Position numbers and translations under genes: made by a program. DNA of 64,000 nucleotides from Arcobacter caeni (GTDB lineage Bacteria > Campylobacterota > Campylobacteria > Campylobacterales > Arcobacteraceae): assembly GCF_003063245.1 (NCBI RefSeq), contig NZ_MUXE01000004.1, positions 124,001-188,000 on the forward strand, in the 5' to 3' direction. Below are positions 6,997 to 20,260 of the stretch, in pieces. The notes beneath the pieces were generated by a model. The model was not told where the DNA came from. It did not search any database and saw only the letters and a list, made by a program, of their open reading frames with translations. Every line of letters starts with the position of its first letter. Positions within the stretch are counted from its first letter, which is position 1.

Positions 6997-9900
6997 ATGA
7001 AATATTTAATTATTCTAATTTTTTTTGTTTCTACACTTTTCTCAAATATACAAAATAATCAATCACTTTTTACTCAAGAAGAACTAGAATGGATAAAAAA
7101 TAATCCAACTGTAAAAGTTGGAATTGATGCAAACTGGCCACCTTTTGAGTATATGAATGATAAAGGAGAATATCAAGGAATAGCTTCTGATTATTTAAAT
7201 ATACTTAGTAATTATACTGGCTTAAAATTTGAACTAAATGCAAGTGATTGGTATAGCGTAATCTCACAAATCAAAGATAAAAAATTAGATATGTTATCTT
7301 GTGTTGCAAAAACACAAGATAGAGAAGAATATTTAAATTATACAACTGCATTTTTAAATATTGATGTTGTTGTTATTGCAAAAAAAGAATTAAAAATCAC
7401 AAACTTTGATGAAATAAAAAATTATACAGTTGCTGTTCAAAAAGGTAATTTTGTTTATGAAAAAGTAATAAAAAAATATCCCAATATAAAATTTGTTTTT
7501 GCCTCATCAAATAAAGAAGCATTTGATATGGTGTCTTATGGCAAAGCTGATATTTTTATTGGAAATATGCCTGTGTTTTCGTACTTTGTAGAAAAAGAAA
7601 TGTATACAAATATTGAAGTTAAATTCAAAGCAGAATTTGACAAAATTGATTTATCAATGGCTGTTTTAAAAGAAAATAAAACTTTATTTAATATTATTCA
7701 AAAAGTTATGCCTTTAATTATTGAAGAAGAAAAAGAGAAAATAAATAAAAAATGGATATTTGAAACAGAAAAAGAAAAACAAGCAATTAATTTTACAAAA
7801 GAAGAAATAAAATGGATAAAAGAAAACCCAAAGATTAAAATTTCAGGAGATGCCTTTTGGCCTCCTTACTCTTTTTATGATGAAAATGCAAAGTATATAG
7901 GAATAATTCCTGATATTGTTGATGAAGTATTTAAGCATACTAGTTTTGATTTAGAATATATAAAAACTAATTCTTGGTCTGATACGATTAATTTAATAAA
8001 AGATAAAAAGATTGATTTAATTGATGCAATATCTTATTCTCCATCAAGAGGAGAATATTTGAATTTTTCTAATAAATATATCGGTGCTGAAATAGTAATA
8101 ATTGCAAATAATAAAGAAAACAATTATATTAACTCTTTTAATAACATTATTGATAAAAATATAGCAAGTGTAAAAGGTTATTCAATAATAGAAGAGATAA
8201 AACGAGATTTTCCTCAAATTAAAAATATCAAAGAGTATGATAATTCATTGGAAGGTTTAAAAGAATTGTCAAATTCTCAGATTGATTATTTTATTTTAGA
8301 TATTCCATCTTTTGAATTTTATAGTAAAAAATATGGTTTGAGTAATTTAAAAATCGTAGGACCAACAGGTTATAACTATAATTATGGCTTTGGTATAAAT
8401 AAAGATAATCAGCAATTAGTTTCTATTTTAAATAAATTATTGAATAATATTTCAGTAGAAAAGAAAGATGAAATTTATAGAAAATGGATAAAAATAGATT
8501 ATAAACAAAAGATTGATTATGACTTAATTTGGAAAATATTAAGTATTTCATTAATTATTTTATCTGTTATATTTTATTGGAATAGAAAACTAAAACAAGA
8601 GATTAGTGAAAAAGAAAAAATCCAAGAAAAGCTAGAATTAGAACAAAATAATATAAAAGCTTTAAATGAAGAGTTAAAAAAAGCAAAAGACATAGCAGAA
8701 AATATATCAAAACAAAAAAGTGAATTTTTAGCAAATATGAGTCATGAAATAAGAACGCCAATGAATTCAGTAATAGGTTTTACAGAAATTTTGGATAAAG
8801 AAATAACAAATCCTCTACATAAAGAGTATTTAGAGTCAATAAAAAAAGGTGGGAATGCGCTTTTACGAATTATAAATGATATTTTAGATTTATCAAAAAT
8901 TGAAGCTGGAAAACTTGAAATAAGAAATGAATCACTAAATCCAACAAATATTTTTTTAGAAATTGAATCAATATTTCATGCAAAAATAATAAGTAAAAAT
9001 ATCATATTTATAGTTGATATTGATAAAACAATTCCTAAATATATAATAATTGATGGAGTTAGAATCCGACAAATTTTATTTAATCTAATTGGAAATGCAA
9101 TTAAATTTACTCAAAATGGTTATATAAAACTAAAAGTTGAAAATGTTTATAAAGATAATATTAAAAGTAAAATCGACTTAATTTTTAGTGTTGAAGATAC
9201 AGGAGTTGGAATAGATGAAAAGAACTTAGAAAGTATTTTTAATGCTTTTGAACAACAAGAAAATCAAGATGTTGCTAAATATGGGGGAACAGGATTAGGT
9301 TTGGCCATTTGTACAAAACTAGTTAAAATGATGAATGGAGAAATAAAAGTAGAAAGTAAAAGAAATAAAGGTTCAACTTTTACTGTAATTTTTAGAGATA
9401 TTCCAGTCAGTGCCATCGAAGTTGAGGTAGTTTCTTCAAAACTAAAAGCTTCAAATATTGTATTTGAAAAAGCTGTTATACTTGTAGTTGATGATATTTT
9501 AGAAAATAGAAAGTTGGTACAAGCTAGTTTAAAAGATTTTGATATTGATTTAATAATGGCACAAAACGGTCAAGAAGCAATTGATTTATTAAAAAATGTA
9601 AATGTAAATTTGATATTAATGGATTTAAGAATGCCTGTTATGGATGGATATGAAGCAGCTACAATTATTAAAAGTGATGAGAGATTAAAAAATATTCCTT
9701 TGATTGCATTAACAGCTTCTGTTATGGGAAAAGATTTGGAAAAAGTATCAGAATTTGGTTTTGATGGATATTTAAGAAAACCAGTAATTATAGATGATTT
9801 GATTGAAGAATTAGCCAAATATTTAAAATATCATACTATTTATGAAGAGATAAAAGAAGAAAATAATTCAAGAATTATAGATTTAGAAAAATTAAAAATA

Positions 9901-17620: not shown

Positions 17621-17641
17621 CTTGACAAGCATTGACTCAAG
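17621..17641. promoter_or_regulatory. HAIR-like element (HspR operator) over the clpB -35
   Basis: The HAIR consensus is CTTGAGT-N7-ACTCAAG. The sequence here is CTTGACA, seven bases, ACTCAAG: 5 of 7 in the left arm and 7 of 7 in the right, with exact spacing. It covers the -35 box, where a repressor would block RNA polymerase. HspR controls heat-shock genes in Helicobacter and Campylobacter. That it acts here is inference. Confidence 0.7.
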
Positions 17642-17650
17642 TGCTATAAT
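17621..17650 (+). promoter_or_regulatory. Consensus sigma70 promoter of clpB
   Basis: TTGACA (17622-17627) and TATAAT (17645-17650) are separated by exactly 17 bases, a full consensus promoter. This is striking because other promoters in the window show only a -10. The predicted start point, near 17657, falls in the CIRCE-like element. Such a strong promoter fits a gene that is kept off by repressors. Confidence 0.85.
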
Positions 17651-17654
17651 TTTA

Positions 17655-17681
17655 TTAGCAATTAAAACCAAGGAGTGCTAA
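17655..17681. promoter_or_regulatory. CIRCE-like element (HrcA operator) over the clpB ribosome binding site
   Basis: The CIRCE consensus is TTAGCACTC-N9-GAGTGCTAA. Here the arms are TTAGCAATT and GAGTGCTAA with exactly nine bases between: 7 of 9 and 9 of 9. It overlaps the predicted transcription start and includes the ribosome binding site AAGGAG (17670-17675), so it could act on DNA and perhaps also as an RNA hairpin. HrcA is the known CIRCE repressor. Confidence 0.75.
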
Positions 17682-17683
17682 TT

Positions 17684-20260
17684 ATGGATAAAATTTTTGA
17701 AAAACTTACAAACCAATTAACTGAAACTATTGATTCAGGTGTAGCTTTGTCTTTACATAACAAAAACCAAGAGGTTGAAGTTATACATTTAATTTGGGCA
17801 TTATTATCAAATACAAATTCTGTTTTAAATCAATTATTAAATAAAATGAATGTAAATAAAATAGCTGTTGAACTTGAAGCAAAATCTTATGCAGCAAAAC
17901 TTCCAAGTGTTTCAAGTGTAACAAAAGAGAGTATAAAACTTTCAAGAAATCTTCTTTCTTCATTACAAAATGCAGAAGGTCTGATGACTAGTTTTGGTGA
18001 TAAATTTATTGCTGTTGATACTTGGCTTATATCTAATTTTGACTCTTCCGTAATAAAAGAGGTATTAGGAAAATACATAGATTTAAGAGAAGCAAAAAAA
18101 GAGCTAGAATCTATGCGTGCAGGGAAAACTATTGATAGTAATAGTGGTGATGAAAATTTAGAAGCTTTAAATAAATATGGAATAGATTTAAATAAAAAAG
18201 CAATTGATGGACTTCTTGACCCTGTTATTGGAAGAGACGAACAAATTAGTAGAATGATGCAAATACTAATAAGAAAAACAAAAAATAATCCTATTTTAAT
18301 AGGAGAACCAGGAACTGGAAAAACAGCAATTGCAGAGGGTCTTGCTCAAAAAATAGTAAATAAAGATGTTCCAACATCATTATTAAATAAAAGAGTTGTA
18401 ACTTTAGATATGAGTTCAATGATTGCAGGTGCAAAATATAGAGGTGAATTTGAAGATAGATTAAAATCAGTTATTGATGAAGTTAAAAAAGCTGGAAATA
18501 TCATTTTATTCATAGATGAAATTCATACAATCATAGGAGCAGGTGCAAGTGAGGGTTCAATGGATGCTGCAAATATCCTAAAACCAAGTCTTGCAAGGGG
18601 AGAATTACATACAATTGGAGCAACAACTCTTAAAGAGTATAGAAAGTATTTTGAAAAAGATACAGCAATGCAAAGAAGATTTCAACCAATAAATGTAAAT
18701 GAACCAAGCGTTAATGAAGCTTTGCAAATTCTAAGAGGAATAAAAGAAAAACTAGAAACGCACCACAATGTAACTATAAATGATAGTGCATTGGTTGCAG
18801 CTGCCAAATTATCTTCTAGATATATTACAGATAGATTTTTACCAGATAAAGCAATAGATTTAATAGATGAAGCAGCAGCTGAACTTAAAATGCAAATTGA
18901 ATCAGAACCAAATGCACTTTCCTTAATTAAAAGAGAGATTCAGACTTTAAATGTGGAAAAAGAAGCTCTTAAAATGGAAGAGGGTAAAAAGAATGATGAG
19001 AGAATTATTCAAATTGAAAAAGAACTTGCAGATAAAAATGAAGAAAAACAAAATTTAGAAGCAAGATTTGCAAATGAAAAAGAGACTTTTAATACAACAA
19101 GTGAATTAAAAATAAAAATTGATGAATTAAAAAATAGAGCAAATATTGCAAAAAGAGAATCAAACTTTGAAAAAGCTGCACAAATTGAGTATGGAGAAAT
19201 TCCAACTTTAGAAGCAAAAATAAAAGATAATGAAGAAAAATGGAAAAGAATGCAAAAAGAGGGAACTCTTTTACGAAATTCTGTAGATGAAGAAGCAATT
19301 GCAAGTATCGTTTCAAGATGGACTGGAATTCCAGTTAATAAAATGATGGACTCAGAAAAACAAAAAATCTTAATGGTTGAAGAAGTTCTAAAAAAAGATG
19401 TAATAGGACAAGATGAAGCATTAAAAGCAATAAGTCGTGCAATTAAAAGAAATAAAGCAGGACTTAGTGAGGCAAATAGACCAATTGGAAGTTTCTTGTT
19501 TTTAGGACCAACCGGAGTTGGAAAAACTGAAAGTGCAAAAACTTTAGCAAAATTCTTATTTGATGATCCAAAATCACTTATTAGATTTGATATGAGTGAA
19601 TACATGGAAAAACACGCAGTTTCAAGACTTGTGGGAGCAGCTCCTGGTTATGTGGGATATGAAGAGGGTGGACAATTAACAGAAGCTGTAAGAAGAAAAC
19701 CTTATAGTGTTATTTTATTTGATGAGGTTGAAAAAGCTCATCCTGATGTATTTAATATTTTATTACAAGTTTTAGATGATGGAAGATTAACTGATAATAA
19801 AGGTGTTACGGTCGATTTTAAAAATACAATTATTATATTAACTTCAAACATTGGAAGCGCAAGAATAATTGAAATAAGTGATAAAGAAGAAAGAAGAAAA
19901 GCGGTTTTAGATGAATTAAAATCTCATTTTAGACCAGAATTTTTAAATAGACTTGATGATATTGTAATTTTTGAACAATTAAATTTGGCTGCAATTACAA
20001 ATATTGTAGATATTTTATTTAATAATATTAAGAAAAAAGTTGAAGAAAAAGATATAAATATTTCTTTAACTTTAAATGCAAAAGAGTATATTGCAAAAAT
20101 TGGATTTGATCCAGTTTATGGTGCAAGACCTCTAAAAAGAGCCATTTATGAGATAGTTGAAGATAAATTAGCTGATTTAATTTTAGAAGATAAAATAGGT
20201 GAGGGAAGTAATATTGAGTTTGATGTTGTGAATAATGAAGTAATAGTAAAAATTAACTAA
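17684..20260 (+). CDS. clpB: ATP-dependent disaggregase ClpB
   Basis: ClpB is the hexameric Hsp100 chaperone that pulls proteins out of aggregates with DnaK. I place the start at the ATG eight bases after AAGGAG, giving 858 residues; a GTG nine bases upstream lies within the operator. Domains in order: N domain (~1-145), AAA1 with Walker [10 protein letters not shown] near 207, the coiled-coil M domain (~400-525, which separates ClpB from ClpA), and AAA2 with GPTGVGKTE near 608 and [11 protein letters not shown] at the C-terminus. It is monocistronic and carries heat-shock-type operators upstream. Confidence 0.97.

Follow-up and report, generated by a model that had tools for sequence, protein, structure and literature searches.

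The 64,000-nucleotide stretch of the Arcobacter caeni genome considered here (the window) contains clpB, and the control region of this gene very probably is a dual-repressor operator–promoter that is addressed by both HspR and HrcA. Motifs, regulator genes, geometry, conservation, and the linked loss of regulator and site are observed; from these, we infer binding and repression by the two proteins. Within 63 bases, the region combines the promoter TTGACA-N17-TATAAT with an HspR-associated inverted repeat (HAIR) and a controlling inverted repeat of chaperone expression (CIRCE). A preliminary description, made from the letters of the window, had listed these elements with 12 of 14 and 16 of 18 matching arm bases, respectively, and all were reproduced at the same positions.

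Architecture of the clpB control region

The candidate HspR operator (17621–17641, no strand assigned) reads CTTGACA-AGCATTG-ACTCAAG and follows the HAIR consensus CTTGAGT-N7-ACTCAAG in 12/14 arm bases with the exact 7-7-7 spacing. The -35 hexamer TTGACA (17622–17627, plus strand) lies within its left arm. Herein, the only two mismatches of the left arm to the consensus (GT to CA) are exactly the bases that create TTGACA; hence, this arm is able to serve RNA polymerase and HspR alike. The -10 hexamer TATAAT (17645–17650, plus strand) follows after a 17-bp spacer. The candidate HrcA operator (17655–17681, no strand assigned) consists of TTAGCAATT-AAAACCAAG-GAGTGCTAA, matching the CIRCE reference consensus TTAGCACTC-N9-GAGTGCTAA in 16/18 arm bases with 9-9-9 spacing, and covers the predicted start point and the leader. 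Transcription is predicted, from the position of the promoter, to start at 17657 on the plus strand, seven bases past the -10 hexamer and inside the left CIRCE arm. The Shine–Dalgarno sequence (SD) AAGGAG (17670–17675, plus strand) overlaps the first three bases of the right CIRCE arm. The gene itself (17684–20260, plus strand, ATG at 17684) encodes the ATP-dependent disaggregase ClpB of 858 amino acids, which matches NCBIfam TIGR03346 with E=0 and 1159.9 bits, slightly below the equivalog cut-off of 1232.

The promoter, whose perfect -35 hexamer the preliminary description had called exceptional, is indeed the sole perfect TTGACA-N16-18-TATAAT in the window with both strands scanned, and the CIRCE is the sole match of at least 14/18. 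Among 60 simulated 64-kb sequences (first-order Markov), a CIRCE of at least 16 was seen 0 times, a HAIR of at least 12 came up at a rate of 0.15 per 64 kb, and perfect promoters at a rate of 0.08 per strand. A HAIR of at least 12/14 is found twice in the window, at the clpB promoter and at 7298–7318 (12/14, CTTGTGTTGCAAAAACACAAG). Such a match is too common to be significant by itself; the weight lies in the co-location of the elements, which is far beyond chance.

In the proposed mechanism, a strong sigma-70–type promoter would be held off by two repressors, with HspR on HAIR blocking the -35 region and HrcA on CIRCE blocking the start region. The left HAIR arm would double as the -35 hexamer, and the right CIRCE arm would at the same time belong to the ribosome binding site. 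Upon heat or protein damage, both repressors would be released and clpB would fire strongly, and hrcA–grpE–dnaK would fire likewise via a near-identical module. The heat signal and a cooperation between HspR and HrcA at clpB are parts of this scheme that we infer.

Regulators and predicted regulon in Arcobacter caeni

Double repression as put forward in the preliminary description presupposes hspR and hrcA, and both were found in the genome. The gene hspR is the second of cbpA–hspR (NCBIfam HspR, 112.8 bits versus a cut-off of 105), and the promoter of this operon carries a HAIR of 12/14 around its own TTGACA-N17-TATAAT and no CIRCE. The first gene of hrcA–grpE–dnaK encodes a short and divergent HrcA, which reaches 246 bits against NF003033 (cut-off 248) and is matched by TIGR00331 in its N-terminal part. 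A search with Pfam PF01628 found no HrcA and missed hrcA at L009:1243–2034 (genome C57). An absence of HrcA, which would argue against its control of clpB, was rejected because operon context and NCBIfam reveal the divergent gene; surveys based on PF01628 would wrongly score HrcA as absent in this genome. The start region of hrcA (L009:1221–1245) shows a GTG start, no clear SD, and an overlapping frame of seven codons (MVVISDR) that begins just upstream, so that a weak or coupled translation of hrcA is possible.

The pattern TTAGCA-N14-GTGCTAA occurs at four sites in the 2.4-Mb genome, always ahead of a chaperone operon (htpG, groES, clpB, and hrcA), compared with 0 sites for a control pattern. 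HAIR accompanies CIRCE only at clpB and hrcA; both promoters have the order HAIR-TATAAT-CIRCE with a HAIR-to-CIRCE offset of 34 bp in each. The preliminary description had proposed to look for the same pair before dnaK and groES: it stands before hrcA–grpE–dnaK but not before groES, which has a CIRCE without HAIR. A HAIR-like match upstream of groES (10/14) was dismissed as being at chance level. Because HAIR joins CIRCE only at these two promoters, the predicted layout assigns cbpA–hspR to HspR alone, clpB and hrcA–grpE–dnaK to both repressors, and groESL and htpG to HrcA alone. The CIRCE before htpG (Hsp90; 17/18, L007:4041–4067, genome C6:21040–21066), likewise without HAIR, suggests control of htpG by HrcA.

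Conservation across Arcobacteraceae and Campylobacterales

For comparison, 40 Campylobacterota clpB loci, nearly all of them from Arcobacteraceae, were aligned in register, and 28 more, including some repeats, were added from whole genomes. Base statistics were calculated for 41 distinct blocks, which were selected for CTTGACA and the core TT[AG]GCA, so that the invariance of the left HAIR arm found in them is partly built in. The right HAIR arm has a mean of 1.75 bits per base, the CIRCE arms 1.72 and 1.92, and the -10 hexamer 1.97 of 2 bits, whereas the two spacers have means of 0.67 and 0.96. HAIR and CIRCE are offset by 34 bp (27 blocks), 35 bp (13), or 33 bp (1). An unselected listing of clpB loci agrees with this picture of conserved arms. 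The reading of the preliminary description hinged on arms being shared by related species; across Arcobacteraceae, they are near invariant, and the spacers drift.

The composite pattern matches in 70 of 399 Campylobacterales genomes, its reversed control in 0. Many Arcobacteraceae genomes contain two matches, at clpB and hrcA, and the same two genes are preceded by the composite in family f6 (L142, L158). Of the single matches outside Arcobacteraceae, those for which the gene was identified lie before hrcA in families f10 (L160) and f5 (L161) and before groESL in f14 (L159). Members of f10, f14, f17, and f20 possess clpB promoters with HAIR only, in agreement with the HspR-only control of clpB in Campylobacter jejuni. 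At the cbpA–hspR locus, a HAIR of 11–13/14 is present in 20/20 genomes.

In C. jejuni, HspR alone represses clpB and cbpA by binding over the core promoter (PMC7464140, PMC12131804). If HspR were the sole regulator of clpB here as well, the CIRCE-like repeat would be a fossil or an accident of the conserved SD (GGAG); its match of only 16/18, the degenerate left arm, and a right arm that overlaps the SD and is thus conserved for another reason would fit. However, the left-arm core TTAGCA has no translational role and is near invariant in the family. Moreover, in lineages with the SD elsewhere, the repeat is equal or better (mostly 16–18/18) and still lies over the start point. HspR-only control of clpB is hence improbable, and control by both repressors remains the preferred reading.

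Proposed role of the leader RNA

The overlap of CIRCE and SD had raised the possibility of an effect at the RNA level, in which the CIRCE in the leader would act on the mRNA as an SD-hiding hairpin or RNA thermometer, instead of or besides serving as a DNA operator. Apart from the overlap itself, the leaders of HspR-less members of genera g7 and g8, with predicted folds of -9 to -17 kcal/mol, speak for such a role. The transcript from the predicted start, however, begins within the left CIRCE arm. In 34/34 family loci whose right arm contains the SD, the left-arm triplet CTC, which could base-pair with the SD, is replaced by [AG]TT, and the leaders of these loci (24–27 nt) have predicted folds of only -1.4 to -5.3 kcal/mol. 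Twenty family loci with a separate SD have CT[CTA] in the left arm, none [AG]TT, and predicted folds of -5.7 to -16.8 kcal/mol; there is no clear difference in SD accessibility between the two classes. The substitution and the weak folds in the fused loci argue against an SD-hiding hairpin, and a search of Rfam returned one weak, implausible match only. Action on the mRNA is therefore very unlikely, and the RNA-level suggestion of the preliminary description was not borne out.

That [AG]TT is present only to free the SD would fit its distribution (34/34 fused versus 0/20 unfused loci); this explanation was not adopted, since GTT is found in these species at the hrcA promoters, too, where no SD is fused to the repeat. 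A lineage preference of HrcA is thus a possible cause.

Natural losses of hspR

The dual-repressor reading of clpB is carried furthest by lineages that have lost hspR. HspR was searched in the 23 genomes carrying the clpB loci and in 104 genomes of the family. It is missing in 4/4 members of genus g5, 7/8 of g7, and 2/3 of g8, as well as in one half-complete metagenome-assembled genome (MAG). Among 40 nonduplicate clpB loci of known HspR status, HAIR is present in 27/28 with HspR and in 0/12 without. On the ClpB tree, the presence of hspR needs five changes; of five independent pairs, four agree that HAIR tracks hspR, none opposes this, and one shows no difference. In HspR-less g7 and g8, the right HAIR arm is gone and CTTGACA is retained, as would be expected if the left arm is kept by the -35 hexamer and the right arm by HspR; genus g5 has lost both arms. 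Because the losses of hspR coincide with the loss of exactly its site, the arrangement seems to be genuine and in use, not a product of chance. The remaining alternative, that HrcA alone regulates clpB and the HAIR-like sequence is a good -35 plus a chance right arm, is extremely unlikely: CTTGACA is fully accounted for by the -35 hexamer and HAIR of this quality recurs in the window, but the right arm (ACTCAAG/ACTAAAG) lies outside both hexamers, is conserved well above the spacer, and disappears where hspR is missing.

The HrcA side also changes in these lineages. The nine HspR-less clpB loci of g7 and g8 have a CIRCE of 17–18/18, compared with 14–17 in HspR-positive loci of the family, and a -10 hexamer of TACAAT or TATACT, compared with TATAAT in all but one of the HspR-positive family loci (G065, discussed below, set aside). 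Before hrcA, three HspR-less g7 loci (L119, L120, L121) have a second CIRCE 74–75 bp upstream of the first; since the genes upstream all differ, this second repeat belongs with hrcA. In the HspR-less genome G074 (g8), an intergenic region between divergent genes contains two CIRCEs at a distance of 85 bp. CIRCE-like upstream repeats (15/18) also occur before hrcA in the HspR-positive L114 and L116, whose hrcA HAIR is weakened. Our reading of these few and partly related lineages is that HrcA may have taken over the share of HspR. It is plausible, if slightly short of probable, that the HAIR/-35/-10/CIRCE arrangement is a portable two-key module of Campylobacterota with HspR and HrcA as one switch, and that after the loss of hspR, selection rebuilds it with HrcA alone, bringing the CIRCE close to perfection, weakening the -10, and, in the case of hrcA, adding another CIRCE farther upstream. 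If true, the evolution of a two-repressor into a one-repressor circuit could be read from natural genomes.

Several observations weigh against the dual-repressor reading of clpB. The sign test on the independent pairs gives p 0.125 with only four informative pairs, so it is the pattern, rather than this test, that mainly carries the correlation of hspR and HAIR. G065 has an HspR match and no clpB HAIR; this HspR is encoded on a contig of 4.3 kb, the MAG is 7% contaminated, and the protein groups with that of a Helicobacteraceae MAG, an unsure placement owing to long branches. With this caveat, the exception G065 looks like a case of contamination and was set aside, given the state of the MAG and the grouping outside the family. 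G074, despite lacking HspR, keeps a HAIR remnant before hrcA. For CIRCE and HrcA, the record is mixed: HrcA is found in 21/23 genomes, and L074 has neither HrcA nor CIRCE; G011, a fragmented MAG, has a CIRCE, yet HrcA was not found in it. Conversely, in G059 (g5), which has HrcA, a CIRCE precedes hrcA but not clpB, which indicates that clpB can leave the circuit, too.

Comparison with known systems

Dual HspR/HrcA control, which the preliminary description had mentioned for Campylobacter and Helicobacter, is documented there for groESL and hrcA–grpE–dnaK (PMC7464140, PMC6102357). Arcobacteraceae share with the promoters of C. jejuni and Helicobacter pylori the use of both repressors with HAIR and CIRCE, the HrcA site over the start, and HspR autoregulating cbpA–hspR (PMC7464140, PMC6102357); here, too, both operators stand on one chaperone promoter, at clpB and at hrcA. 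In C. jejuni, the CIRCE-like sites bound by HrcA cover start points, and on the co-repressed groESL and hrcA promoters, HspR occupies a distant upstream site, with HrcA at the start point (PMC7464140), whereas HAIR contains the -35 hexamer here. The two proteins contact each other directly and bind cooperatively in C. jejuni but bind independently in H. pylori (PMC7464140, PMC6102357, PMC12131804). In Campylobacter and Helicobacter, clpB is not dual and the HrcA regulon lies within that of HspR. The CIRCEs without HAIR at groES and htpG, by comparison, imply that the two predicted regulons overlap only in part in Arcobacter caeni.

The clpB promoter of C. jejuni resembles the present one in its HAIR over the core promoter, and two f10 genomes (L148, L151) show the same without a CIRCE at the start point. 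Arcobacteraceae add this CIRCE, mostly fused with the ribosome binding site, as does one genome each of f5 and f6. In Mollicutes, CIRCE lies upstream of clpB as it does here (PMC5138195, citing Chang et al. 2008); the available part of that source reports no HspR partner, unlike here. Streptomyces and bifidobacteria have HAIR upstream of clpB under HspR, as here; for bifidobacteria, CIRCE is listed before groEL, groES, and hrcA and not before clpB, unlike here (PMC6102357, PMC9004370). A search of the open-access literature returned no paper that deals with HspR/HrcA operators of Arcobacteraceae.

Compared with Campylobacter and Helicobacter, the novelty is which gene is dual and where HspR sits; the two-repressor principle itself was already known. 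Family-wide, clpB would join the jointly controlled set, its HspR operator merging with the -35 hexamer and its HrcA operator with the ribosome binding site. The most interesting part lies beyond the window, where hspR and the nonpromoter half of its operator are lost together. Repeated hspR losses, each accompanied by loss of the operator half that the -35 hexamer can spare, allow the simplification of a two-repressor heat-shock circuit to be tested by comparison.

Further composite-like promoters

In two relatives, composite-like promoters are located at L156:5876–5936 and L157:3595–3655 (minus strand), not before chaperone genes. Small open reading frames follow roughly 200–300 bp downstream, encoding a basic protein of ~42 amino acids and a protein of ~70 amino acids. 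These genes may be additional regulon members that are transcribed with long leaders.
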